Program-made: the position numbers and the translations under genes | Shown: positions 3,430 to 40,858 of the stretch, in pieces | Position numbering within the stretch: the first letter of the stretch is position 1 | How the letters are laid out: each line of letters begins with the position of its first letter | The notes under the pieces: model-generated | The model's input: only the letters and a program-made list of their open reading frames with translations | What the model was told of the DNA's origin: nothing | The model's database searches: none | From: a virus | Direction: 5' to 3' (one strand) | Virus record (IMG/VR): IMGVR_UViG_3300012964_000020 | Span: 1-40,858 of that record | Length of the DNA: 40,858 nucleotides

Positions 3430-3626
3430 AGAAACACATCGCTGTTCGGTATCCTGTCGGCCTGCTCGACGTAGGGGACAGTTTTTTTATCCCCGTCCTT
3501 TACGCGGGGGGCCACATGCACAAAATCCGCAAGCTCGCGGATCAGCTAGGGGTAGAGGTTTCATACAAAACCGGCATCGACCAAACGACTGGTCTGTACG
3601 GGGTTCGCGTATTTAGGACGCGTTGA
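3420..3626 (+). CDS. Small conserved phage protein
   Basis: 68 residues. It starts at ATG 3420 inside the end of copy B; a longer version from 3378 would only read through copy B in another frame. The pattern VGLLDVGDSFFIPVLYAG, then a basic helix (HKIRKLADQLG), then GLYGVRVFRTR at the C-terminus matches a type of small phage protein with a V-G-D-S-F-F entry and an R-V-(F/W)-R exit, whose role I do not know. It is the last + gene of the left cluster and its end overlaps the convergent late-operon gene by 14 bases. No terminator hairpin is evident between the two transcription units. Confidence 0.7.
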   Translation: MPVKKHIAVRYPVGLLDVGDSFFIPVLYAGGHMHKIRKLADQLGVEVSYKTGIDQTTGLYGVRVFRTR

Positions 3627-6600
3627 ACTGCTGCCGGGATTTCATCTCGCGTTGCTGCGCACGTTGCGGAGCGGATATCAGAGTCGATAGAGGTTGATGC
3701 TTCAGGATATCCGGCAACTGTTTAAACTGCCCGCGCTGATCATCCTTGCTCTTCTGCAACTCCATCCATTTCGCGCGCAGGTCGTTCATTTTTTCCTGAT
3801 CCTTAGCCTTGTACGCTTGCACATATTGATGCTCCAGCTCACGGCTTTTATCGTTATAGAACTTCGTTATCTTGTATTGGCGGATCTCTTGGTCTTGTAG
3901 GTCTTTTACCTCGGTGGACGGCAGGCCCGCAGCAGTCAGCAGAATACCGAACGCAGAGATATCTTCTGGTTTAACAACCAGGTCCCCATTCTTCAGTGTG
4001 TACCCATCATTAGCCAAGCGGAACGCTTGCATGGCCTGCTCCAGCCCTTTCGGCATCAGCTTCTCAGCCCCTTTGTACATATCGCCTTGGCCGATCATAC
4101 CTACACCCTGCGCCATGCGCCCAGCCTGGCCCACACCCGGCCCAGCCATTCCAGCTAAAGTCTTCGCTACACCGGTCTTGCTGGTGAGATCGAACTGTGT
4201 ATACGGGGCGATACTGAAAATATTATCATCACCGAGTTTCGCTGACATATCCAGCCCGACGAAGGACGGGAACCCGTGTAGCAATAACTGGGCCAGGTTC
4301 TTGTCGCCAATCAACTTCTGCCCCTTCGACTCCAGATCGTCCGAGCCGCCGCCAACAGCGCCGTATACCAACCCTGCGAGGTTCATCAGGGGCAAGCCCA
4401 ACACACCGCTGGCAATACCTGTATGCAGCAGCTTGAATCCCAGCATGCGCCGACCGATCTCTCGCTCATTCGCGGTAGCTCCACGGAAGGCTCCAACAAA
4501 CGCCTTGGTGTAGTATGCCGCCATCATCAGCTGGAACTTCTTGTACTGCCCAACAACCTTAGGCAGCTTCTTCAGCAGCAATGGAGCAGCGCTGTGAGTA
4601 AAGTCGCCTTGGGTCTCCCTCAAGATGTTGACCATATACTCTCTGGCTTCCATCGGGGACATTTTTTTTTCGATAGCCATATTGTACGCCGCGGTGGCAC
4701 CTGAAACCCGGTTCCAACGCTCCACCGCGCTGGAAACTTGACGCAGCTTGTGGATCGCACGGGCAGCCAGGCCGCTCGTAGCGTCGATCGGCCGGTAGCC
4801 GGTGGTGAAGCGGTCGAAGTGTTTCAAGTCTTCTGTCATACCTACATCCAACAGCTGTAGGTTAGCTGCGTGCTCTAACGCGCCGCGCAGGTTCTGGTCT
4901 TTTATCTTGGTGAGGTCGATGGTCATCCCCCAATCTTTCGTGATCGCCATCATCTGTTTGTACCCCACTCCCACATGCCTCCACCCACCGGGGTAGTCAT
5001 TGAAGTCCGCAGCCAGTTTCGGGAGTAGGACCATGACAGTCTGGGTGAAGTTGGCCAAGTGATAGCTCAGGCTGGTAGCCAGCTGCATAGCCGACGTAGC
5101 TGCTACAATGCCGTCCTGGATCGGGGTCGGGTTATACTTCAGGCTGTCTACATGGTGTGCGGCGATCAGGTTGAAATCGTCTTGCCCAACACGGTGCAAT
5201 GTCTCTGGGTGTTCGATCTCATTCTGCATCTGGTGGAAGGCTTGGTTGATCTCCGCGCCGTGGGCCACGTTGGCAATGTATGCCGCCCGTGCGCGGCCGT
5301 GGTTCAGCATCGTACTGATCACATCCTCATCCCACCCAGCGGTACCGAGCCGCGCCCGGTTCGCCTGCTGCGCGCTGTTTCTATCCAGTGTCGAGAGATA
5401 TAGTGAGCGGATGCTGTCTTCCATCGCTTTGCGCACTTCAAGTGGGGTATGCTCATCAACCCCCAAGGCAGCCCGCACGCGCTCCAGAACCCGAGGGCTC
5501 ATTGTGCTACGGTCCTCGATCTGCGGACTTTTAGCGTAGGCATCGACAGAAGCGAACTTGCCCTTGTTGGCGCGAGCGAACTCATGCGCTTGGCCAGGGG
5601 TATCAAACCCTCGCAGTACATACTGCGTAGGGTCCGATTTTAATTTAAGCACCAAAGCTCTATTTTTGGCCTTCTCGGCGTCCAAATACGCTTGCGATTT
5701 CAGCTCGGCAAAAAAGTCGCCTTTACGTTCCAAGTGAACGTACGGTCCTTCCATCATCTGGCGCTGGGCAAACACACCCTGCGCGCCGCGCTTCTCCAGC
5801 ACATCTCGCTGCATCTGACCTATTTCTTCGTTGGTCTTGAACACGAGGTCGATCAATTGTTGCTCTTCTGGGGAGAAGCTCTTGAACTCAGCGGCGAACT
5901 TCGGATCGATTGTCACGGTGCGGCCGAGTCCTTCGGGTTGGTGCCCCCACTTCTGCTCCAGCGAGGAACGCGCCAGGAAGTCACCGACGGCTAGACGTCG
6001 CTTGGTGTCCAGCTTGTTTGCCAACTGGGCTACGTCCTCAAACTTGCGCTCGATCGCGCCGCGAGTCGCTTCCTTCGCAGATAATCCTGCGCGCCATGTT
6101 TTGGCCGAAGGCATGTGACGCTGCACCCGCTGCACAATGGCATCCAGCGACTCCAAGGAGCCTACCAGTTTTTTCAACACATGGGATGTATCGGTGATCA
6201 CCGAATGACCGCGGGAACCGAGATACTTATCAGCCATGTCATGCGCAACGCTGGTAACCCCATCTAGCACTGAGGCTTTGCGCGCTTCCGGCGAACCGCC
6301 GAGTGGACCTTCCTCGGTTTCCCGAGCAGTAGGCTCATTGGCCGGTACTTCCTCGGCCTGTTTCACTGAGGGCATGACGGGTTCTTTGCCGGTGACTTCT
6401 TCGCCGGGCGCGCGCAGCTCTTTCGCTACCGCGCCGTGCAGCACGTCAACCAGATCCTGGCCAGTCAGTTCTTTACCCAACCCGAGACGACGCATAACAT
6501 CTTTGGCCAGATCGCGGATGTAACTCAGGAACCGGCCCCCCAATGAATTTGTGCGTGGAGTGACCCCGCGAGCATGCAGTTCTTCGGCGGTGTAGGCGAT

Positions 6601-9144
6601 CAGTTCCTTCCCGCGGAGATCTGCAGGTGTATCCGCTGGGATACGTTTCTCAGCAGCCAGTGCAGCTTCACGTTCCAGCGGAGCGGTACCTGTCTTCCAG
6701 CGCTGGACTTCGGCAACCAGCTTGACAACATTCGCTGGGCCGACCAGACCATCAAGACCGACGTGCTCACCGACCTCATGCAGGATGACCGCTTTCTCCT
6801 GTCCTTTGGTAACCCGGTCAGCGACGATAACCGCTTTCTTGCCGCGGAACGACACTGCAGTGGTTGTATCCTGGAAATGCCGGCGCTCTTCGGCCGGCAC
6901 ATCGTTCAGAGTTTCGTAAACTTGTAATTTGTTCTTATTCCACTCCGGCCCGGCTAGATCGGCCGCGGCCTGTTCAACGTCCGCCTTCCTTGAAATTTGT
7001 CCCCCGGCTTGGCCTTCGCGGTACATAAACTCATCAGGGTCGTGCTGCCCCAGCTCGGCTTGGATCTCTTGCCGGCGGCCGGCAGCCGCATGCTCTTTCA
7101 TGGCCTTCTTGAACATCGCCGGGGTCAGATCAACTTTCTCTGGGCGCAGGCGGCCACGCGCGTCTACCGCCGGGGACTCTTTATTGCTTTGAATCTGTGC
7201 ATGCAGGGAGTCCTGCACATCAGGATCGAGCTCTTTGAATGCTGGGATGTCCGGGCTGTTATCCCGCATATCTTCCCACTGGGACTCCACTTCCTTATTG
7301 TAACGAGCCTCGCGCGAGGTACCGCTTTCCGGTGCCTGTTTGGTTGGCCGCGCCGCTTCTTCAGGCGCGCGTTCCTCCGGAACGGATTTCTCTGGAGCGG
7401 GTTCCACCGCTTTCGGGGCTTCTTCAGGTGCTGACTCTACGGCTTTTGGCGCCTCAACAGGTTTTTCCACCGGCACGGTCTCTGCTACCTTCGGCACTTC
7501 CGCCAGCGGCACTTCCGCCAGCGGCAATTCTGGCTGCAACACAGGAGCACTTTGGTCTTTTGCCTTGGCCAGGATGTCACGCAGCGGGGCCTCGTCGCCT
7601 GTGGTCTGATACAGCTTATTCGCTTCGTCGAACTTACTACGCAGCAGGGTGATGTTCAGATCATCAATAGTCGTAGTCAGCCGACGCATCGCATCGCCGG
7701 TAGGCGCTTGTTTCGAGTTGGCGTGATCCATCAGTGCTTGCTGCAAGGCTTCTATCTTTGCTGGATCATCCAGTGGGGTACCGGTAAATTGCTCGCGGAT
7801 CTTCTTGCCCGTACCAGCGTTACCAATCCCAGCCAGGTTGAAGAAAGTTCTGCCCGCAACAGGTGGCGCGCCTTCTTCTGGAGCCGCTGGTTGCATCGGA
7901 TTTGCTTGCAGCTCCTTGATGACATTTCGCTGTGCGGTGATGTCCGACTTCGGCGCCTTTTGGCTTTTCAGGTAGTCCAGCACGGCCTGCTCACGGGGTA
8001 GATCAGGATGCACAGGTGTCTTCGGAGCACCGAAGCCCATATCCTGTGTCCCCCCTTGTGGCGTAGCTTGGAACGCCTGCTCTTTCGCTACACGGCCGGC
8101 CTGTTCCGCCTGTGCTTCATCCCATGTTTTGCCGAACTGGGCCCCGGCCTGCTCAACAGCCTTAACCTGTGGGCGACGAGCGAATGCCCCCATCACCCCA
8201 CCGAGCGGCGCGAACGCTACCGCGGCTTTCAGATTCTCAGCCAAGCGTGCCTGTTCTTCGGGGCTGCTTAAGTCCTCACCAGCCTGCGCGGCGCGCAGCG
8301 CTTCTGTTCCCACCATCATAGGGGCGCCAATAGCGGCGGCCTCACCGGTGCGTACTAGCATATTCTTGGCGGTGCTATTAAGCGTAGCGATCGCTGCTTT
8401 CGTGCTCATCTGCCCGTTGGCCACCGCTGTGGCTGTTTCTGCCAAGTTCGGCCCCAGCAACTTGAAATACTTCACCCCGGCAGGGCCCAGACTACCGAGC
8501 ACAGGCATTAGAGCGGCTTGCGCCAAGGAAGCCATAATCGTGTTGGTCTGATCGAATTGCGGAGCTGACTGTCCTTGTGCTTGCGCTTGTTGCGCAACCT
8601 CCTGCTGGCGCTGAACGTTCTCCCCTTGCTCCATCGGGAAATCAGAGGCTATAAAACCGGCGCCGCGAACCAGCGCGGCCGTACCCGCCGCACCAAGACC
8701 GAACAAACCTGCTTCAGGGGCGGCCAAAGCCGCAGCGGCGCCGGCGGCGGTCGGAATAGCATAGCGCCCGACCATACCCCCAACAGGCTCAGAAACATTG
8801 CGCTCAAATGCGGTGCCTAGCCCCGGCAAGATACCCTTCTGCCAAGCCGCTTTGGATTCTTCATCGGTCACCGGGTGGTACGCGCCGGGGGTTTGATCTG
8901 GCGCCATCATCTGCGCGCCATACTGTTGCATCCCTTCACTACCGGCAAGGTTGCCTATCCCTCGGATACCCGCCCCAACACTCTCGCGCCCCGCAGCCCA
9001 AGCGGCTGGGAAGAACCCATGTTTTTGTGCGATGCCGTACGCCTCCGGAAACTGCCGCATTGCTTTAGCGTCAGCCTCCTCCCACGACATATTATCCGGA
9101 ACCGTAACGTATCCGCCATCCGGTAGGTAGTGCACGCGCGCCAT
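3613..9144 (-). CDS. Giant polyvalent internal virion protein (1843 aa)
   Basis: The largest gene and the distal gene of the late operon. It is probably packaged in the capsid and ejected with the DNA, as for the large internal proteins of podoviruses (inference). Visible parts: an N-terminal segment followed by Ala/Gly-rich hydrophobic stretches (about 85-160); Ala/Gln-rich helical regions; a Pro/Glu/Ala-rich linker with repeated EAPK/EKP units (about 530-620); a zincin-like ILHEVGEHVGLDG (HEVGEH at 789-794) of the kind seen in large polyvalent phage and mobile-element proteins; long amphipathic helices; and a C-terminal part (about 1470-1600, QYKKFQLMMAAYY, then a hydrophobic LLHTGIASGVLGLPLM) resembling the LPD38-type domain of such proteins. 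The spacing HExxxH is not the canonical HExxH, so peptidase activity is uncertain. A weak GGAG lies 13 bases before the start. Confidence 0.8.
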   Translation of the reverse strand: MARVHYLPDGGYVTVPDNMSWEEADAKAMRQFPEAYGIAQKHGFFPAAWAAGRESVGAGIRGIGNLAGSEGMQQYGAQMMAPDQTPGAYHPVTDEESKAAWQKGILPGLGTAFERNVSEPVGGMVGRYAIPTAAGAAAALAAPEAGLFGLGAAGTAALVRGAGFIASDFPMEQGENVQRQQEVAQQAQAQGQSAPQFDQTNTIMASLAQAALMPVLGSLGPAGVKYFKLLGPNLAETATAVANGQMSTKAAIATLNSTAKNMLVRTGEAAAIGAPMMVGTEALRAAQAGEDLSSPEEQARLAENLKAAVAFAPLGGVMGAFARRPQVKAVEQAGAQFGKTWDEAQAEQAGRVAKEQAFQATPQGGTQDMGFGAPKTPVHPDLPREQAVLDYLKSQKAPKSDITAQRNVIKELQANPMQPAAPEEGAPPVAGRTFFNLAGIGNAGTGKKIREQFTGTPLDDPAKIEALQQALMDHANSKQAPTGDAMRRLTTTIDDLNITLLRSKFDEANKLYQTTGDEAPLRDILAKAKDQSAPVLQPELPLAEVPLAEVPKVAETVPVEKPVEAPKAVESAPEEAPKAVEPAPEKSVPEERAPEEAARPTKQAPESGTSREARYNKEVESQWEDMRDNSPDIPAFKELDPDVQDSLHAQIQSNKESPAVDARGRLRPEKVDLTPAMFKKAMKEHAAAGRRQEIQAELGQHDPDEFMYREGQAGGQISRKADVEQAAADLAGPEWNKNKLQVYETLNDVPAEERRHFQDTTTAVSFRGKKAVIVADRVTKGQEKAVILHEVGEHVGLDGLVGPANVVKLVAEVQRWKTGTAPLEREAALAAEKRIPADTPADLRGKELIAYTAEELHARGVTPRTNSLGGRFLSYIRDLAKDVMRRLGLGKELTGQDLVDVLHGAVAKELRAPGEEVTGKEPVMPSVKQAEEVPANEPTARETEEGPLGGSPEARKASVLDGVTSVAHDMADKYLGSRGHSVITDTSHVLKKLVGSLESLDAIVQRVQRHMPSAKTWRAGLSAKEATRGAIERKFEDVAQLANKLDTKRRLAVGDFLARSSLEQKWGHQPEGLGRTVTIDPKFAAEFKSFSPEEQQLIDLVFKTNEEIGQMQRDVLEKRGAQGVFAQRQMMEGPYVHLERKGDFFAELKSQAYLDAEKAKNRALVLKLKSDPTQYVLRGFDTPGQAHEFARANKGKFASVDAYAKSPQIEDRSTMSPRVLERVRAALGVDEHTPLEVRKAMEDSIRSLYLSTLDRNSAQQANRARLGTAGWDEDVISTMLNHGRARAAYIANVAHGAEINQAFHQMQNEIEHPETLHRVGQDDFNLIAAHHVDSLKYNPTPIQDGIVAATSAMQLATSLSYHLANFTQTVMVLLPKLAADFNDYPGGWRHVGVGYKQMMAITKDWGMTIDLTKIKDQNLRGALEHAANLQLLDVGMTEDLKHFDRFTTGYRPIDATSGLAARAIHKLRQVSSAVERWNRVSGATAAYNMAIEKKMSPMEAREYMVNILRETQGDFTHSAAPLLLKKLPKVVGQYKKFQLMMAAYYTKAFVGAFRGATANEREIGRRMLGFKLLHTGIASGVLGLPLMNLAGLVYGAVGGGSDDLESKGQKLIGDKNLAQLLLHGFPSFVGLDMSAKLGDDNIFSIAPYTQFDLTSKTGVAKTLAGMAGPGVGQAGRMAQGVGMIGQGDMYKGAEKLMPKGLEQAMQAFRLANDGYTLKNGDLVVKPEDISAFGILLTAAGLPSTEVKDLQDQEIRQYKITKFYNDKSRELEHQYVQAYKAKDQEKMNDLRAKWMELQKSKDDQRGQFKQLPDILKHQPLSTLISAPQRAQQREMKSRQQFNAS

Positions 9145-14016: not shown

Positions 14017-15132
14017 TTAAAGTTCTGAGATTAATTGCCACACACTCGTTACATTATATATTTCGCCCCCCGCAGAACTTGTAATATCAAATCGAGCACC
14101 AATATTTGTTATGCCATTTACCCCCGAGCTAGAAACACCTTGAGTTATACCCGCAGATAATAGTGTGATAGACGGGGCTGCTAACATATTGAAATACAGA
14201 GGAGTTGCTATTGTTTGCCCCGCCGCTGAAACATAGCCACGAGCATTCAGTTGCATAGTTCTGTACCTCTGCTGACATCTTACCAACATCTCAGCATTTG
14301 ATTCTTGATGCTGCGTAGCAACAGTACCAAGGTTTAATTTAACCTCTTCTAGCGCCCATACGTTGCCTATAGTGGCTAGGTCGTTTACTTGATTGGCTGT
14401 AGCTATAAAGTTTCCAGTTACCCATGAGTCAGTTGTTGCTGTTTGGTATGTTGATCCGCATGCGTGTGTAAAGAGTAAAACTAATCCAATTCCATTAGTG
14501 TAATTCCACGTCCCTGCTGTTGGCAAACCTCCAGTTACAGTGAAGCTATAATCAGCCCATGTGTTCGCAGCGGAAACTGAAATTTCATGCACATAGCTTC
14601 TATCTACTCCACCATTTCTTAAGGAAACGCAGTGTATCCCTGTAACAGGGAATTTTGCTCTGAAAGAAACAGTAAAAGTTTGCCCGACATATTTTACTAT
14701 GTCATAACCAAGCATTCTTTGTTGTTCATTAACCACATCCCCAGCAGCAATTGCCGCATCAGCGGTCGTAATGGTTACCTGTCGGCACAGTCTTCCTGTT
14801 ACACTGCCTGCGGCTTGCGCAACTGTAAAACCAGCCGCAGATGAATTTGCATTCATCCAACCATCAAGATCATAAGCGACACTAGCAGGTGCAGCAAAAC
14901 TAGTCCCCCTTTGTGCTATCTGGAAGTTACCGTTGAGAATGCTATTGTGCTGTGCTGGATATACGCCGTTCAATGTTGAGGTGTATAGCTGCTGGGAGCT
15001 ACCCGGTGTCAATACCGCCGTGTTCGCATCCTGATTATTCAAATACTGGGTCAGAATACGGGTGAGCTGATTGATATAATCAGCGTTGTACTCTTTTGGC
15101 GCGATGGGTAGGGCTGGTGGTTTCGTACTCAT
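14017..15132 (-). CDS. Tail fibre / receptor-binding protein (371 aa)
   Basis: The N-terminus PPALPIAPKEYNADYINQLT has the short attachment pattern used by fibres that dock on a podovirus tail. The body starts with NSILNGNFQIAQRGTSFAAP and YDLDGWMNAN, the N-G-N-F-x-h-x-Q-R-G-T-S plus D-x-W motif of carbohydrate-binding beta-sandwich domains in phage fibres and tailspikes. The remainder is Ser/Thr/Asn-rich beta structure ending in SVWQLISEL. It overlaps the tail hub gene stop by ATGA. The DNA is visibly more A+T-rich than its neighbours, as expected for a host-range module gained by exchange. Receptor binding is inferred; no catalytic tailspike residues are recognised. Confidence 0.75.
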   Translation of the reverse strand: MSTKPPALPIAPKEYNADYINQLTRILTQYLNNQDANTAVLTPGSSQQLYTSTLNGVYPAQHNSILNGNFQIAQRGTSFAAPASVAYDLDGWMNANSSAAGFTVAQAAGSVTGRLCRQVTITTADAAIAAGDVVNEQQRMLGYDIVKYVGQTFTVSFRAKFPVTGIHCVSLRNGGVDRSYVHEISVSAANTWADYSFTVTGGLPTAGTWNYTNGIGLVLLFTHACGSTYQTATTDSWVTGNFIATANQVNDLATIGNVWALEEVKLNLGTVATQHQESNAEMLVRCQQRYRTMQLNARGYVSAAGQTIATPLYFNMLAAPSITLLSAGITQGVSSSGVNGITNIGARFDITSSAGGEIYNVTSVWQLISEL

Positions 15133-16997
15133 CTTTGGCCGTCCTCTCGCACATCGATACGTGGCGTGCCCATCTGCCAGGCCACACCAACGTCGGTGGA
15201 TTCAACCCGATATGTTATCTGCCGGCCGCGCACGCGGACCCAACATTGTTCTGTAAACTGCTGAAAGGGGACTATCGAAGTTTGCGCCACGGTGCTGGCC
15301 TGTGTCTCCCCGAAGTTACCCCCGGCACTATCACGCGCCTTGATTGTGATTGTCACCGAAGGTGTCACCGCAGTTGAATTGTCGAAATCTATGTCAGGTA
15401 AAATGCGGGAGACGAAGGAAAAGTTCTGCCCGTCGCCGATGTCGATATCAGCGGACTCCAAGTAGGCATTGATCGCGCTATATGGCGCGGTCGAGCCATC
15501 GTCAAATCCATACTCATGGTAGTACAGCTTACCGTCATAAGCAGCCGCAACAGGAGTGCTCTGCAGTGCGGTGTCTAACCACGCAGTGCGTGCCAAAGTA
15601 CCGAATGTCCAGATGTTCTCCACGTAGTTATAAGTTACGTAATTACTGACCGTGTTCGACCCAGTACCGCAATAGTACCAGGTCACTTCATTGAATGCTG
15701 CATTTGTGCCGGTGAAGACCTGCCCGATCTGAGTAGTGTTCATCCCGTTAAACACATACTTCCGCACATCACATGGTAGCGTTTGAACCTGCCCATTGTA
15801 TACGTAGAACTTGCCATTCCCCATCCAGTAAGCAACGTTGTTCGCCACAGCAACCGCCGTAGGCGAAACGATAGAGAGATTATTCGCTAGGGTCGTGAAA
15901 GAAAAAATAACTGGCGGACCGACAAACTGCATAGAGACCAGCGCAGTGTCTGTCCAAATCAGATTTTCCTGGCGCATCTTCTCGCCGCATACGATATAAC
16001 TGCCGGTGGTCAGTCGCTGATCCCCCGCGGTAGTAGTGGCGCTGGGGGTCCAGTTCACGGGGTTACCCTCATCGCACCAGCGGACAAGCAACGGATCTTG
16101 CGTACTTGTGCCACGCGTATTCGCACCGAGGGCCACAACGTGCACATCGTCGGTTACAAAAATATCTGCAGCAATCGTCGGAGCATCAGAAGCACCGACC
16201 TGCGAAGCTAGCGTTGTGCCTCGAACCGCGAGGGATGCTGGGGCTCCGATGGCCGCTGACCAGTAATAGATCCCCGCGTTCTTGATGCAGTAAATAAAGT
16301 CCTGCCCGAAGTTATCCCCACGCCATTGACGCAATCCTGTGGTGATTACACCGGTGCCGGTAGTAGCTGCGAGTCCGTAACCACCAACGCCGTAGGCGCC
16401 GACGCCATAACCCAAGCCGACGACAGAGATATCCGAGCCGGTATTTACTTGGAATGCCGCAACAACTGCCGCGCCACCGCCTGTTATCCCGCCCGCTGTA
16501 CAGGGCGTAGCGGTGATTGTAAAAGTATTCGCGGTCAGCACCGTGACTTGGAACTCTGCATTAAGTGTGGCTGCCAGGATACCATCGACTGCGGCGGAGC
16601 CGGAGAAAGTGACGAAATCCCCAGTGATTGCCCCATGACTGTTTATTGTGACTGTTACAACTGAAGAACCAGCCGTGCCAGTGGTAAAAGGATTCGTGAG
16701 CGCCCCAGTGGTGTATCGAATAGGGGTAATATCGTAATACGCGGTACCGCGTTCAAGATACATCTTCAAGTTTGTGCCTACCGCGATCAAGTTCTCACCA
16801 GCGAGGGTCACCCAGTTATGCAGTAGTCGAGCTACACCTTTAAATGTGCTGGACCCGAGGGGGGCCCACCCGCCGATTTTCTCAGGTGTGCCAGACCGGA
16901 ACCGAATTTTGTCCATATCCCACCAGCGTCCCTCATTTGTATACCTTGAGTTTTCACGGTTGACTCCTGGGCGGAATATCAGTTTTTGCAATGGCAT
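15129..16997 (-). CDS. Tail hub / packaged-DNA stabilisation protein, P22 gp10-like
   Basis: 622 residues. The start MPLQKLIFRPGVNRENSRYT followed by EGRWWDMDKIRFRSGTPEK and IGGWAPL is the well-known N-terminal signature of the gp10-like beta-propeller tail proteins in podoviruses, which close the portal channel and carry fibres. Repeated strand motifs follow (VRWCDEGNPVNWTP; WTDTALVSMQFVGPP; AYWMGNGKFYVYNGQV), as expected for propeller blades. An inserted Gly/Ala/Thr-rich domain at about 100-200 (including GLGYGVGAYGVGGYG) looks like an added Ig-like module. Overlaps the downstream fibre gene (ATGA) and follows the spanin gene by one base. Confidence 0.8.
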   Translation of the reverse strand: MPLQKLIFRPGVNRENSRYTNEGRWWDMDKIRFRSGTPEKIGGWAPLGSSTFKGVARLLHNWVTLAGENLIAVGTNLKMYLERGTAYYDITPIRYTTGALTNPFTTGTAGSSVVTVTINSHGAITGDFVTFSGSAAVDGILAATLNAEFQVTVLTANTFTITATPCTAGGITGGGAAVVAAFQVNTGSDISVVGLGYGVGAYGVGGYGLAATTGTGVITTGLRQWRGDNFGQDFIYCIKNAGIYYWSAAIGAPASLAVRGTTLASQVGASDAPTIAADIFVTDDVHVVALGANTRGTSTQDPLLVRWCDEGNPVNWTPSATTTAGDQRLTTGSYIVCGEKMRQENLIWTDTALVSMQFVGPPVIFSFTTLANNLSIVSPTAVAVANNVAYWMGNGKFYVYNGQVQTLPCDVRKYVFNGMNTTQIGQVFTGTNAAFNEVTWYYCGTGSNTVSNYVTYNYVENIWTFGTLARTAWLDTALQSTPVAAAYDGKLYYHEYGFDDGSTAPYSAINAYLESADIDIGDGQNFSFVSRILPDIDFDNSTAVTPSVTITIKARDSAGGNFGETQASTVAQTSIVPFQQFTEQCWVRVRGRQITYRVESTDVGVAWQMGTPRIDVREDGQR

Positions 16998-16998
16998 T

Positions 16999-17457
16999 CT
17001 ATTTCACCAACTCAAGCAAATAATGACACTGCACGTGCTCCCTCATAGCGCGGGCATAGAAATCCGAGTCGCATACTCCTCCTCCAACGGCAAGGGCTGT
17101 AAGAGTATGGGTGGTATCGGCTGCTTCTCTGGGCACACCACTGGTGCCACTTCCTGCCACGCACACACTTGGGTTCCGTGGCACAGCTTCAGCGATGCGC
17201 AGCCTGTTACTGATAACAGACAGAGCACCAAGATACCCATCTTGAGACATGTCAGCTTTGGCGCGCTGCTCAGCTTCCTGTTTTGCTTTTGCTTTTTCGG
17301 CTCTCTGCATTTGGTCATGAATATTCTCCTTATAAGCATCGAATTCGACTTGCTTACGCTCTTCCCCGAGGCGATACCCTTTATAGCCAGCCGAAGCCAG
17401 CAGCGATGCTAGCAGTAGGCCAAAAGCACCGAACTTATATATGGCGGTCAGATCCAT
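16999..17457 (-). CDS. Rz: Rz-like inner-membrane spanin
   Basis: 152 residues. One N-terminal transmembrane segment (FGAFGLLLASLLASAGYKGY) is followed by a charged helical periplasmic part (YKENIHDQMQRAEKAKAKQE) with coiled-coil character, the layout of i-spanins that bridge inner and outer membranes in the last step of Gram-negative lysis. The identification is strengthened by a second frame inside it coding a lipoprotein (17043-17240), the nested Rz/Rz1 arrangement. The start overlaps the stop of the upstream membrane protein (TAATG) and the gene ends next to the tail hub gene. Cysteines in the C-terminal part (CVAG, GVCDSD, VQCH) are frequent in Rz proteins. Confidence 0.8.
   Translation of the reverse strand: MDLTAIYKFGAFGLLLASLLASAGYKGYRLGEERKQVEFDAYKENIHDQMQRAEKAKAKQEAEQRAKADMSQDGYLGALSVISNRLRIAEAVPRNPSVCVAGSGTSGVPREAADTTHTLTALAVGGGVCDSDFYARAMREHVQCHYLLELVK
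17043..17240 (-). CDS. Rz1: Rz1-like outer-membrane lipoprotein spanin, nested in Rz
   Basis: 65 residues in a different frame, wholly inside Rz. MGILVLCLLSVTGCASLK is a lipoprotein signal with lipobox VTGC, so Cys13 would be lipidated and carried to the outer membrane. The mature part is Pro-rich (PEKQPIPPILLQPLP), typical of Rz1. ATG 17240 is chosen because the signal peptide starts right there; the frame is open further upstream (to 17339) but that would bury the signal. The SD is weak, as is usual for nested Rz1 genes. It would pair with Rz across the periplasm. Confidence 0.8.
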   Translation of the reverse strand: MGILVLCLLSVTGCASLKLCHGTQVCAWQEVAPVVCPEKQPIPPILLQPLPLEEEYATRISMPAL

Positions 17458-17825
17458 TATTTTTTGGTCACCAATGTTTGAACATTATTGCTTAGGCTGT
17501 CCGCGGCGTAGCCAACAAGCACTGCTGCAACAATCACGTCTATGCCAGTGACGGGTAAAAACCCGTGTGCGATCCTAGCCCACAATAGTTCGAGATTGAG
17601 ACTATTTGCTCCTGGGGCTGTTTTGCAGAATTGCCACGCAGAAGAAGCCAACGCCCCAGCCTTCAACAGCACCCCGGTGCGGTTCCCGAAGACCATATAA
17701 GTCAGCAGTGAGACAGACGAGCGCTTCGTCGCTCGTACCATTGTGTAGTGCGCCACCGCCCCGACATATATGCAGAACAATACTGCGAGGTACGTCCACA
17801 CCAATATTTCGCCTTTATCATCCAT
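17457..17825 (-). CDS. Membrane protein of lysis block, possible holin
   Basis: 122 residues with two clear transmembrane stretches: VWTYLAVLFCIYVGAVAHYT near the N-terminus and GIDVIVAAVLVGYAADSL near the C-terminus, with a weaker hydrophobic patch around LLKAGALASSAW. Location between the DUF5675 gene and Rz/Rz1 makes a holin or holin-associated role likely. ATG follows the preceding stop by one base. The polar tail SNNVQTLVTKK ends at the Rz start. An alternative is an antiholin paired with the 88-residue protein upstream; sequence alone does not decide. Confidence 0.6.
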   Translation of the reverse strand: MDDKGEILVWTYLAVLFCIYVGAVAHYTMVRATKRSSVSLLTYMVFGNRTGVLLKAGALASSAWQFCKTAPGANSLNLELLWARIAHGFLPVTGIDVIVAAVLVGYAADSLSNNVQTLVTKK

Positions 17826-17826
17826 A

Positions 17827-18240
17827 TCAATCCCGCGTGATAGTCAGTTGAAAAATACTCCCGTTCATCTCTTCTTCAAATTCAGCGATCGCTTGCTTGC
17901 TGCGCAGCACGCCGGTCTGGCCATCAAGTTTGCCTACGTCTTTGCCGAGGGCTATACAGCCTTCCAGTTGCTTCCTGAGCGGAGCATCCCCCATCCAGTT
18001 CGCTGAGTGAATCTCAATCATGTTCCGCCCAGGCACATTATAAACCTGATAGCACCAACCGTGTTTTGGGGAGTTGAACCACCGGCAGGTGTATACACCC
18101 TCGGGGATGCAGCTGACTCCATTCTTGTTATCATGCCAAGCTAGTTCGCCTGTATGCCACGACTTTCCAGTATCAGTGGTAAGAACTCCAAAAGTACCTT
18201 CTACAGTACTCGGCTTACTCATCAGCGTTGCAGTTCTCAT
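17827..18240 (-). CDS. DUF5675-family protein, candidate cell-wall lysis enzyme
   Basis: 137 residues from ATG 18240, which has GGGAG 8 bases upstream and overlaps the previous stop (ATGA); a longer start at 18261 lacks this. Motifs in order: EGTFGVLTTD, LAWHDNKNGVSCIPEGVYTC, VPGRNMIEIHSAN, then EGCIALGK. This is the DUF5675 pattern (T-x-G-V-L, N-x-x-S-C-I-P-x-G-x-Y, I-H-x-x-N, G-C-I-x-L-G). Members usually sit in phage lysis regions with unproven activity. The order S-C-I-P...H-x-x-N...G-C-I recalls the His/Cys layout of L,D-transpeptidase-like enzymes, so it is the best endolysin candidate here, an inference. Confidence 0.7.
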   Translation of the reverse strand: MRTATLMSKPSTVEGTFGVLTTDTGKSWHTGELAWHDNKNGVSCIPEGVYTCRWFNSPKHGWCYQVYNVPGRNMIEIHSANWMGDAPLRKQLEGCIALGKDVGKLDGQTGVLRSKQAIAEFEEEMNGSIFQLTITRD

Positions 18241-18500
18241 TTCAGATGCTCCCTGATCCAATCAAGCGCCCCTGCGCCGATAAGCCCAATCAGAGTTATT
18301 ATGAACCCTAGTATTAATGACCCGGCAATCTTGTCTTCCAAGGCTTTACGCCGTGCCGCTTTCTCCGCCCGCTCCTCGATCAACGTTTGGATGAACGCAT
18401 GCTGTTGCGAGTGCGTCTCTGGGTCAATCCAGAAAATATGTTTATCTTCTTTCAACTTAGCTAATACTGCGTCAGCTATATCTTCCGGTTTCAGTTCCAT
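18237..18500 (-). CDS. Single-span membrane protein, holin-like (87 aa)
   Basis: The N-terminal part is soluble and charged (LKPEDIADAVLAKLKEDKHI then FWIDPETHSQQHAFIQTLI), followed by a basic helix EERAEKAARRKALEDK and one C-terminal transmembrane segment (IAGSLILGFIITLIGLIGAG) with a short DWIREHLK tail. The W-x-x-x-E-x-H-x-x-H pattern plus C-terminal span is seen in small phage lysis-region proteins. ATG 18500 is preferred because GGAG lies 6 bases before it; the ATG at 18512 directly follows the previous stop and has no SD. The stop overlaps the DUF5675 start. Holin, antiholin or accessory lysis role is inferred. Confidence 0.65.
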   Translation of the reverse strand: MELKPEDIADAVLAKLKEDKHIFWIDPETHSQQHAFIQTLIEERAEKAARRKALEDKIAGSLILGFIITLIGLIGAGALDWIREHLK

Positions 18501-18512
18501 ACCAAACTCCAT

Positions 18513-18926
18513 CTATTTCAAATTATATTTCGCCTGCAGCCCTAAAAATCCGTCGATATCAGTGCTACCTATTTTCGCGTTAGGGACCGCCATCAAATTT
18601 ACCCCAAAAGGCCCTTTTTCATATGAACCCATCAAGCCTGCGGCTGGCACCACATCAGCTACAGGGTATCCTGTAATCCCCCCGCCAACGACCCCGGCGC
18701 TGAATCGTCCTATACCGGTATCCGCATGCACTGGCATATATCCGGCAAGGGCATAATTCGAGTTATTCCTCAGACTGTTCAGGTATTGCCCGAGCATATA
18801 CCTCATATCACCATCCTGATATTCGAGCCCGAATCCAGGATTGGTTTCGTTGTAGTCCATCTGGTTTTTCTTATCTCGATTCCAGTGATAAGCTGATAGA
18901 CTCTGATCTAAATATAATTTAGGCAT
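18513..18926 (-). CDS. Putative beta-barrel-like protein after tail fibre
   Basis: 137 residues without a signal peptide. The run NETNPGFGLEYQDGDMRYML then GQYLNSLRNNSNYALAGYMP, SAGVVGGGITGYPVADVVPA and a C-terminal GFLGLQAKYNLK show regular alternation of aromatic/hydrophobic and polar residues, like an antiparallel beta-barrel or sandwich. The motif N-P-G-h-G-h-E-Y followed by G-x-Y-x-N-S is one I associate with small outer-membrane-type proteins carried by phages, but I cannot name the family. Position between a fibre gene and the lysis block fits either a tail component or an envelope-acting protein. Confidence 0.55.
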   Translation of the reverse strand: MPKLYLDQSLSAYHWNRDKKNQMDYNETNPGFGLEYQDGDMRYMLGQYLNSLRNNSNYALAGYMPVHADTGIGRFSAGVVGGGITGYPVADVVPAAGLMGSYEKGPFGVNLMAVPNAKIGSTDIDGFLGLQAKYNLK

Positions 18927-40067: not shown

Positions 40068-40308
40068 AGACGAAGCGATCAGGCAGATACTTGCCGTGAT
40101 GGTAATGCAGGGTGGTCAGTTCGGTCCTGGTGAGTTGTATCACATACGACAGAGAGTGGGTATTATGCCCCAGGTGAATTTATTGCTGTACGGGTCTATA
40201 GAGTTCGTCGACACCGGCGAAGTCTCTTGGCGCATCACCGAGAAAGGTTTAGCCTTCCTACGCGAAGGAACAACTACCAAACTAGAGACTTGGCATGGAG
40301 CTACTTAA
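40048..40308 (+). CDS. Small paralogue-family protein, copy H
   Basis: 86-residue, most divergent member of the family described at 2753. SSEDEAIRQILAVMVMQGG has lost the W-L-M but keeps the helix, and RITEKGLAFLREG keeps the end with REG instead of KGE, followed by a new tail TTTKLETWHGAT. That tail is written by the CATGGAGCTACTTAA sequence which starts the Gly-rich gene and is repeated at 40600. Closest relative is broken copy D. GGGAG 8 bases upstream. Function unknown. Confidence 0.75.
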   Translation: MTTKSSEDEAIRQILAVMVMQGGQFGPGELYHIRQRVGIMPQVNLLLYGSIEFVDTGEVSWRITEKGLAFLREGTTTKLETWHGAT

Positions 40309-40615
40309 ATTAAACGGCAGCGGCTACGGCTACGGCGACGGCTACGGCGGCGGCAGCGGCTACGGCGGCGGCTACGGCAACGGCAGCGGCAACGGCTACG
40401 GCCGCGGCAACGGCAACGGCATCGGCAGCGGCTACGGCTACGGCAGCGGCATCGGCAGCGGCATCGGCAGCGGCATCGGCGACGGCAACGGCAACGGCAG
40501 CGGCAGCGGCTACGGCGACGGCACACCTGAGCAGTTGTTCATGCGGATGGTGTTTAATGCAGCAATTTATAAGGATATGAGGATAACCTGTAAGGTGCAG
40601 CATGGAGCTACTTAA
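40295..40615 (+). CDS. Gly-X repeat protein, copy 1 (106 aa)
   Basis: MELLKLNG, then about 35 dipeptides Gly-X where X is Tyr, Ser, Asp, Asn, Ile, Gly or Arg, then a unique C-terminus TPEQLFMRMVFNAAIYKDMR, ITCKVQHGAT. Within the repeat every Gly is GGC and every X codon ends in C, so the DNA is (GGC-NNC)n. The SD is weak. Starts inside copy H. The conserved non-repeat ends, shared with copy 2, support a real gene. A flexible or self-assembling region is likely; the function is unknown. Antisense frames through the repeat are open only because of its composition. Confidence 0.65.
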   Translation: MELLKLNGSGYGYGDGYGGGSGYGGGYGNGSGNGYGRGNGNGIGSGYGYGSGIGSGIGSGIGDGNGNGSGSGYGDGTPEQLFMRMVFNAAIYKDMRITCKVQHGAT

Positions 40616-40858
40616 ATTAAACGGCTACGGCGGCGACTACGGCGGCGACTACGGCGACGGCCGCGGCAGCGGCAGCGGCTACGGCAGCGGCAGCGGCTAC
40701 GGCATCGGCGACGGCAGCGGCAGCGGCAGCGGCTACGGCATCGGCTACGGCGACGGTAGCGGCGACGGCAGCGGCAGCGGCTACGGCTACGGCAGCGGCG
40801 ACGGCACACCTGAGCAGTTGTTCATGCGGATGGTGTTTAATGCAGCAATTTATAAGGA
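40602..40858 (+). CDS. Gly-X repeat protein, copy 2, 3' end outside window
   Basis: Tandem duplicate of the previous gene, same start MELLKLNG and, after a different series of about 31 Gly-X units (more Asp and Gly at the start, YGGDYGGDYGDG), the same unique segment TPEQLFMRMVFNAAIYK, cut by the window end. AAGGTG lies before the ATG, inside the end of copy 1. One GGT codon is the only departure from GGC. The two copies have near-identical flanks but different repeat order, so the repeat changes faster than the rest. Confidence 0.65.
   Translation, partial: MELLKLNGYGGDYGGDYGDGRGSGSGYGSGSGYGIGDGSGSGSGYGIGYGDGSGDGSGSGYGYGSGDGTPEQLFMRMVFNAAIYK

Follow-up and report, generated by a model that had tools for sequence, protein, structure and literature searches.

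A DUF5675 protein with a predicted YkuD fold as candidate endolysin in the lysis block of a phage genome record

Genes of the lysis block

The DNA analysed here (the window) is the whole of IMG/VR virus record IMGVR_UViG_3300012964_000020 with its 40,858 bases. The record is linear and has no end repeats, so that part of the phage genome may be missing; it ends (40295-40858) in long simple repeats of the GGCTACGGC type, which probably mark a break in the assembly. The lysis block occupies positions 16999-18512 of the minus strand, on which the transcription order is PagP-like protein, 91-aa protein, DUF5675 protein, 122-aa membrane protein, Rz-like protein with an Rz1-like frame inside its gene, and 622-aa virion protein. 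The PagP-like outer-membrane protein directly upstream of the block (18513-18926, minus strand; phrog_3600, E 1.7e-9) could alter the outer membrane at about the time of lysis. At a distance from the block, a 1843-aa protein (3613-9144, minus strand) resembles the DarB-like antirestriction family phrog_10089 in its C-terminal third.

A preliminary description of this DNA had reported two holin-like proteins together with Rz and Rz1, and all of these elements were found on the minus strand, the holins and spanins being assigned from topology and not from family matches. Neither spanin is named by PHROGs or NCBIfam, and NCBIfam names no protein of the lysis block. The 91-aa protein (18237-18512, minus strand), a candidate holin or release helper, combines a soluble N-terminal part with one C-terminal hydrophobic membrane helix (hydropathy 2.39 at residues 62-80) and has no family in PHROGs, nor one above cut-off in Pfam or NCBIfam. 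It is the membrane protein previously given as 88 residues long, a length that results from reading from the second ATG, while the full ORF encodes 91 residues. The 122-aa membrane protein (17457-17825, minus strand) is a holin candidate with at least two strong hydrophobic segments (residues 7 and 89), and the holin family PF06946 matches it with E 0.013, below the family cut-off. For the Rz-like i-spanin candidate (152 aa; 16999-17457, minus strand), which carries an N-terminal membrane anchor (hydropathy 1.72 at residue 3), no family was obtained above cut-off in Pfam, PHROGs or NCBIfam. Its gene overlaps and contains the Rz1-like lipoprotein frame (17043-17339, minus strand), whose likely start is an internal Met at about 17240; a V-T-G-C, taken as lipobox by eye, closes its hydrophobic segment and is followed by a Pro-rich tail. 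Beside the block, the conserved marker gene of the 622-aa virion protein (15129-16997, minus strand) matches phrog_3287 with E 2.3e-71.

The remaining gene (17827-18240, minus strand) encodes a 137-aa protein of the Pfam family DUF5675 (PF18925; E 6.6e-25, 87.6 bits against a cut-off of 26.7), which is a predicted YkuD-fold Cys L,D-peptidase and candidate endolysin. It is also matched by phrog_1501 ('unknown function') with E 8.9e-23. The longest ORF (17827-18261, minus strand) begins with a TTG; the ATG at 18240 was chosen as start on the basis of the homologues and of the 4-base overlap with the upstream gene. The protein exhibits neither a membrane segment nor a signal peptide. Assignment as a SAR endolysin was dropped, since the maximum 19-residue hydropathy is 0.4 and an N-terminal membrane segment is absent.

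The preliminary description had recognised no endolysin in the block and had pointed out that one elsewhere in the genome would speak against the DUF5675 protein. In a six-frame search of the whole 40.9-kb record no match was found for PF00959, PF01510, PF08291, PF05838, PF00182, PF01464 or PF13539, and no other wall-degrading enzyme emerged when 26 proteins of the window were scanned with Pfam and/or PHROGs.

Predicted fold and active site

The structural model of the DUF5675 protein, calculated from a 66-sequence alignment, has a mean pLDDT of 97.6 and a pTM of 0.91. A comparison with YkuD-type folds, as had been suggested before, was run on this predicted model: in VIA-align seven entries reached Z 8.2-10.7, with 97-110 residues aligned, and every one has the YkuD fold (two entries of Pgp2, and Csd6, LdtMt2, Tlde1a, Ldtfm and DpaA). 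After these, Z dropped to 2.2. The sole good PDB match in Foldseek was H. pylori Csd6 (E 0.015, probability 0.99). With Csd6 (4xzz; Z 9.9, 110 aligned residues) and Pgp2 (6xj7; Z 10.7, 109 aligned residues) the fold is shared over the whole 137 aa including the His/Cys pair, although both are larger bacterial cell-shape enzymes with 16% identity to the DUF5675 protein. Tlde1a (7uo3; Z 9.2) is a small YkuD-like enzyme with a short His-Cys spacing like that of most DUF5675 members, but it is a type VI antibacterial effector passed between bacteria, whereas DUF5675 is a phage protein. The predicted fold of the DUF5675 protein is thus the L,D-transpeptidase catalytic-domain fold (YkuD superfamily). 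Searching solved structures by sequence, either with the single protein or with a 9-sequence profile, gave nothing meaningful. PF03734 (YkuD) did not match the window protein up to E 0.1, and consequently the protein is not filed as a PF03734 member. In a viral structure library the model resembled other DUF5675 proteins and a crAss-like phage 'L,D-carboxypeptidase/transpeptidase'. The crAss-like phage cr124_1 relative (L216, 3842-4264), annotated 'putative transpeptidase', is interrupted by a single in-frame stop when read with table 11, which would fit stop recoding in this phage.

Profile comparison with YkuD domains matches IPxGxY to TPxGxY and places the IH and the GC of DUF5675 on those of YkuD (Prob 68.9 and 76.9, E 4.5e-5 and 2.1e-5); 30 column-shuffled decoys per target (60 in total) reached at most 0.94 and the reversed targets 0.17. 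His78 (codon 18007-18009, minus strand), the predicted catalytic histidine, aligns with the histidine of the YkuD IHG, and Cys95 (codon 17956-17958, minus strand), the predicted nucleophile, with the cysteine of the YkuD GC. In an alignment gathered without any motif (18 sequences, the window protein and 17 relatives) both residues are kept in 18/18 and are invariant together with Met1, Tyr50, Arg72 and Gly94. The 66-sequence alignment comprises the window protein and 65 of 80 loci found with a peptide pattern, redundant or broken ones being omitted; here His78 is kept in 65/66 and Cys95 in 66/66, the conservation of Q91, L92, G94, C95 and G99 being given by construction because the collecting pattern contains GC, including this Cys. 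From the sequences, His78/Cys95 is the predicted catalytic pair.

The order S43-C44-I45-P46, H78-S-A-N81 and G94-C95-I96, which had been described as recalling an L,D-transpeptidase layout, is indeed present. This likeness held for the fold, the profile alignment and His78/Cys95, and failed for the cysteine of S-C-I-P: Cys44 varies (Cys in 53 of the 66 and 16 of the 18 aligned sequences) and was dropped as catalytic candidate. The window protein (H78-S79-X15-C95) fits the motif H(S/G/D)X14-19C, given for YkuD-type enzymes in the accessible text of PMC4599014. In most relatives (55/66 and 16/18 in the two alignments) the His-Cys distance is 11, so that they fall outside this motif; the distance is close to that of the Tlde1a active pair H121/C131 (PMC9638812, accessible text). 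At the (S/T)HGC signature the window protein reads L-E-G-C; Tlde1a retains the histidine of this signature (PMC9638812), whereas DUF5675 has QLEGC or similar. One DUF5675 homologue (L033, 7995-8411) carries Glu instead of the conserved His and, judged by this exchange, may be inactive or use altered chemistry. Other members exhibit a long C-terminal extension or an N-terminal membrane-anchor-like stretch (L046, L047, L048; L087, L088).

Genomic context of DUF5675 genes

For the 622-aa protein 80 viral relatives were obtained, and DUF5675 occurs in 0/80 of them in the DNA fetched around this gene. Directly upstream of the 622-aa gene, 59/80 encode a known lysis enzyme, namely GH24 lysozyme (47), GH108 (5), M15 (4) or GH19 (3), with representatives named by Pfam. 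The window therefore has DUF5675 where its relatives have known endolysins. The remaining 21 comprise nine with less than 700 bases upstream, eleven without a match, and the closest lineage relative (L095), whose unassigned 132-aa slot protein (5949-6347) was matched by nothing in Pfam, PHROGs, NCBIfam or PDB; we take it by eye to look M15-like (SxHxxxxAxD...WxH), and it was left uncounted because it matched only itself. Among the eleven, L098, L124 and L132 match the PHROG endolysin phrog_7, the L099 record matches PF00959, and the ORFs of L100, L102, L126 and L127 are positioned as in L098 or L124; no lysis enzyme was seen at the slot of L112, L119 and L122.

Slot replacement is seen in this lineage and in two other settings, one Mu-like and one HP1/P2-like. 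Mu encodes, in this order, late activator C, endolysin gp22, Rz-like gp23, gp24, DUF2730 gp25, gp26 and terminase small subunit. For martha 12B12 and ZX4290, two Mu-like Vibrio phages, the order is late activator, DUF5675, two hypotheticals, DksA-like, DUF2730, a small protein and terminase small subunit, with one hypothetical gene between late activator and DUF5675 in martha 12B12; in both, DUF5675 lies where Mu has lys. Mu gp22 and DUF5675 thus share a genomic slot, which runs from late activator through enzyme, spanin region and DUF2730 to terminase, but gp22 is a SAR muramidase (PMC9239132, accessible text) of PF00959. The HP1/P2-like Vibrio phage PQ189327 carries DUF5675 in its HP1-type lys region: the next gene bears the note 'Holin of 3TMs' and, two genes on, the HP1-type protein 'in lys 3'region' is matched. 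PF10805, the Pfam accession for DUF2730 (PMC9239132), is represented in Rheinheimera phage Barba8S by a gene two places downstream of DUF5675. Neither the 622-aa gene nor the small lysis genes of the window were found near other DUF5675 genes, and without common neighbours the enzyme seems to move alone. DUF5675 is also carried by three microviruses of 4.8-6.2 kb. In a gokushovirus (L090) an unannotated DUF5675 gene is followed by a hydrophobic mini-frame of 30 residues (2045-2144, start MSFIV), which could be a tiny release protein.

DUF5675 neighbours are enriched in holins. With genes taken from a simple longest-ORF model, 66 of the 200 same-strand genes that lie no more than two places from DUF5675 encode small membrane proteins, compared to 17 of 246 for those four to six places away (Fisher p 1.3e-12). 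A same-strand membrane protein lies within two genes at 46 of 66 loci, and 20/66 loci have none in this range. For family scans 150 of the 181 near and 150 of the 165 far proteins were used, each of at most about 320 aa. Among the first 25 of 98 families listed for the near proteins, holin phrog_3427 matched 12, holin phrog_6384 two and phrog_1544 nine; the first 25 of 34 Pfam families listed include GTA_holin_3TM (9) and Phage_holin_3_3 (2). None of the three PHROG families appears among the first 25 of 159 families listed for the far proteins. DUF5675 is accordingly encoded, as a phage endolysin would be, together with holin and spanins (in the window as judged by topology), and it stands at the place of known endolysins in related phages.

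Each of the seven endolysin families searched in the window was found in 0/36 DUF5675 records, whereas at least one occurs in 12/13 DUF5675-free lineage relatives (Fisher p 1.4e-10); the records were picked mainly for length after the slot enzyme types were known, and all but two are from IMG/VR and possibly fragments. The 13 relatives contain PF00959 (7), PF08291 (2), PF05838 (2), PF00182 (1) and PF01464 (1, in a relative that also has PF00959), with PF01510 and PF13539 at 0. Furthermore, three of the seven families were searched in another 18 DUF5675 phages, all of them reference phages, and in Mu, which as positive control matched PF00959: PF00959 (GH24) and PF01510 (Amidase_2) gave 0/18 each and PF08291 (M15_3) 1/18. 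As an exception to mutual exclusion, Pseudomonas phage pf16 (L206, 1931-3463) has an M15_3 match in a 541-aa frame that directly precedes DUF5675. PT11-V22 carries, about 2.5 kb from DUF5675, a gene with the annotation 'permuted papain-like amidase'. As the search covered seven families, an unrecognised endolysin elsewhere in DUF5675 phages is possible.

Discussion

The suggestion that the DUF5675 protein supplies the muralytic activity is supported by the predicted fold, the decoy-controlled profiles, slot replacement, exclusion of seven endolysin families and the holin neighbours, all of them computational. The DUF5675 gene is most likely the endolysin gene of this phage and would encode a soluble YkuD-fold enzyme with a His78/Cys95 site that is released by a holin. 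The protein would build up in the cytoplasm, from where the 122-aa and/or the 91-aa membrane protein would let it into the periplasm; release by a pore-forming holin is expected for a protein without signal peptide, SAR anchor or membrane segment. YkuD enzymes act at the L-centre of mDAP. Cys95 may attack the stem-peptide bond on the L-centre side of diaminopimelate, and we presume hydrolysis, rather than transfer, of the mDAP-D-Ala bond in 4-3 cross-links as the preferred reaction. Since the bond from mDAP3 to D-Ala4 of the donor stem sits inside the ordinary 4-3 cross-link, such a cut would unzip the wall, after which Rz/Rz1 would disrupt the outer membrane; the DUF5675 enzyme alone would presumably suffice for cell lysis.

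What weighs against an endolysin is that YkuD enzymes mostly cross-link or trim, together with the homologue L033 that lacks the His, the exceptions pf16 and PT11-V22, and the 20/66 loci that lack a same-strand membrane protein nearby. According to the accessible text of the review PMC12729407, enzymes of the YkuD fold include transpeptidases, carboxypeptidases and endopeptidases, with L,D-endopeptidase activity reported for only a few of them. The nearest solved folds include the trimming enzymes Csd6 and Pgp2 as well as DpaA, and pf16 has its M15_3 domain beside DUF5675, as might be expected if DUF5675 were a wall-modifying accessory for stem-peptide trimming or Lpp release and the real endolysin belonged to an unrecognised family. 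DpaA frees Lpp from the wall. Such an accessory should co-occur with ordinary endolysins, yet the seven families are missing from all 36 DUF5675 records and DUF5675 fills the endolysin slot one-for-one; we regard this explanation as quite improbable.

Tlde1a possesses exchange and carboxypeptidase activity (PMC9638812), and the typical DUF5675 His-Cys spacing of 11 is near its H121/C131. By analogy, DUF5675 could be a transpeptidase that exchanges or blocks cross-links with an amine acceptor, the wall failing without net hydrolysis. We consider this unlikely, as exchange usually requires ongoing wall synthesis or free acceptors while phage lysis is abrupt. That DUF5675 adds L,D cross-links during infection, as a wall-strengthening or superinfection-exclusion factor, would agree with the common cross-linking by YkuD enzymes and with those DUF5675 genes that lie away from obvious holins. 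The position in the lysis block, the replacement of GH24, GH108, M15, GH19 and Mu gp22, and the missing export signal do not fit such a factor, which appears very improbable indeed.

The endolysin assignment has one precursor. In 2022, synteny and HHpred led to the proposal that the endolysin of martha 12B12 is a soluble protein weakly similar to L,D-transpeptidases (PMC9239132); the gene at this position encodes DUF5675 (YP_007877532.1) and lies where Mu has lys. As far as the accessible text goes, that work covers this one phage without naming DUF5675, and the window belongs to an unrelated phage type. PhaLP lists YkuD as catalytic domain in 10 lytic-protein entries (PMC8310338, accessible text), but the domain is defined there through PF03734, PF10908 and cd16913, a set that does not include DUF5675. 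In the literature searched, which left most subscription papers and preprints outside, the accessible texts mention DUF5675 as a bare annotation only and contain no activity test of a phage endolysin of YkuD/L,D-transpeptidase type. Most likely, DUF5675, a family of unknown function, consists of putative YkuD-fold endolysins, foreshadowed for one phage and now supported by predictions across many.

Going further, there is an even chance that DUF5675 constitutes a separate, widely spread endolysin class, a holin-released cysteine L,D-endopeptidase that cuts mDAP-D-Ala inside cross-links and is swapped as a cassette in unrelated phages and microviruses. If so, it would be exchanged with muramidases, GH19, GH108 and M15 enzymes, its users being unrelated tailed phages of Proteobacteria and Bacteroidota and a Microcystis phage, and 5-kb ssDNA microviruses would possess a real wall-degrading lysis enzyme and not only a wall-synthesis inhibitor. 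Carbapenems inhibit YkuD enzymes, which raises the question whether they could block phage lysis; as a small single-domain enzyme, the protein is also an antibacterial candidate. Endolysins are classed by the bond they cut into muramidases, transglycosylases, amidases and endopeptidases, and a cysteine-dependent L,D-type endolysin would add a further chemical class. A function would thereby be assigned to the Pfam family DUF5675 and to phrog_1501, and it would be explained why large groups of marine Vibrio phages seem to lack an endolysin.
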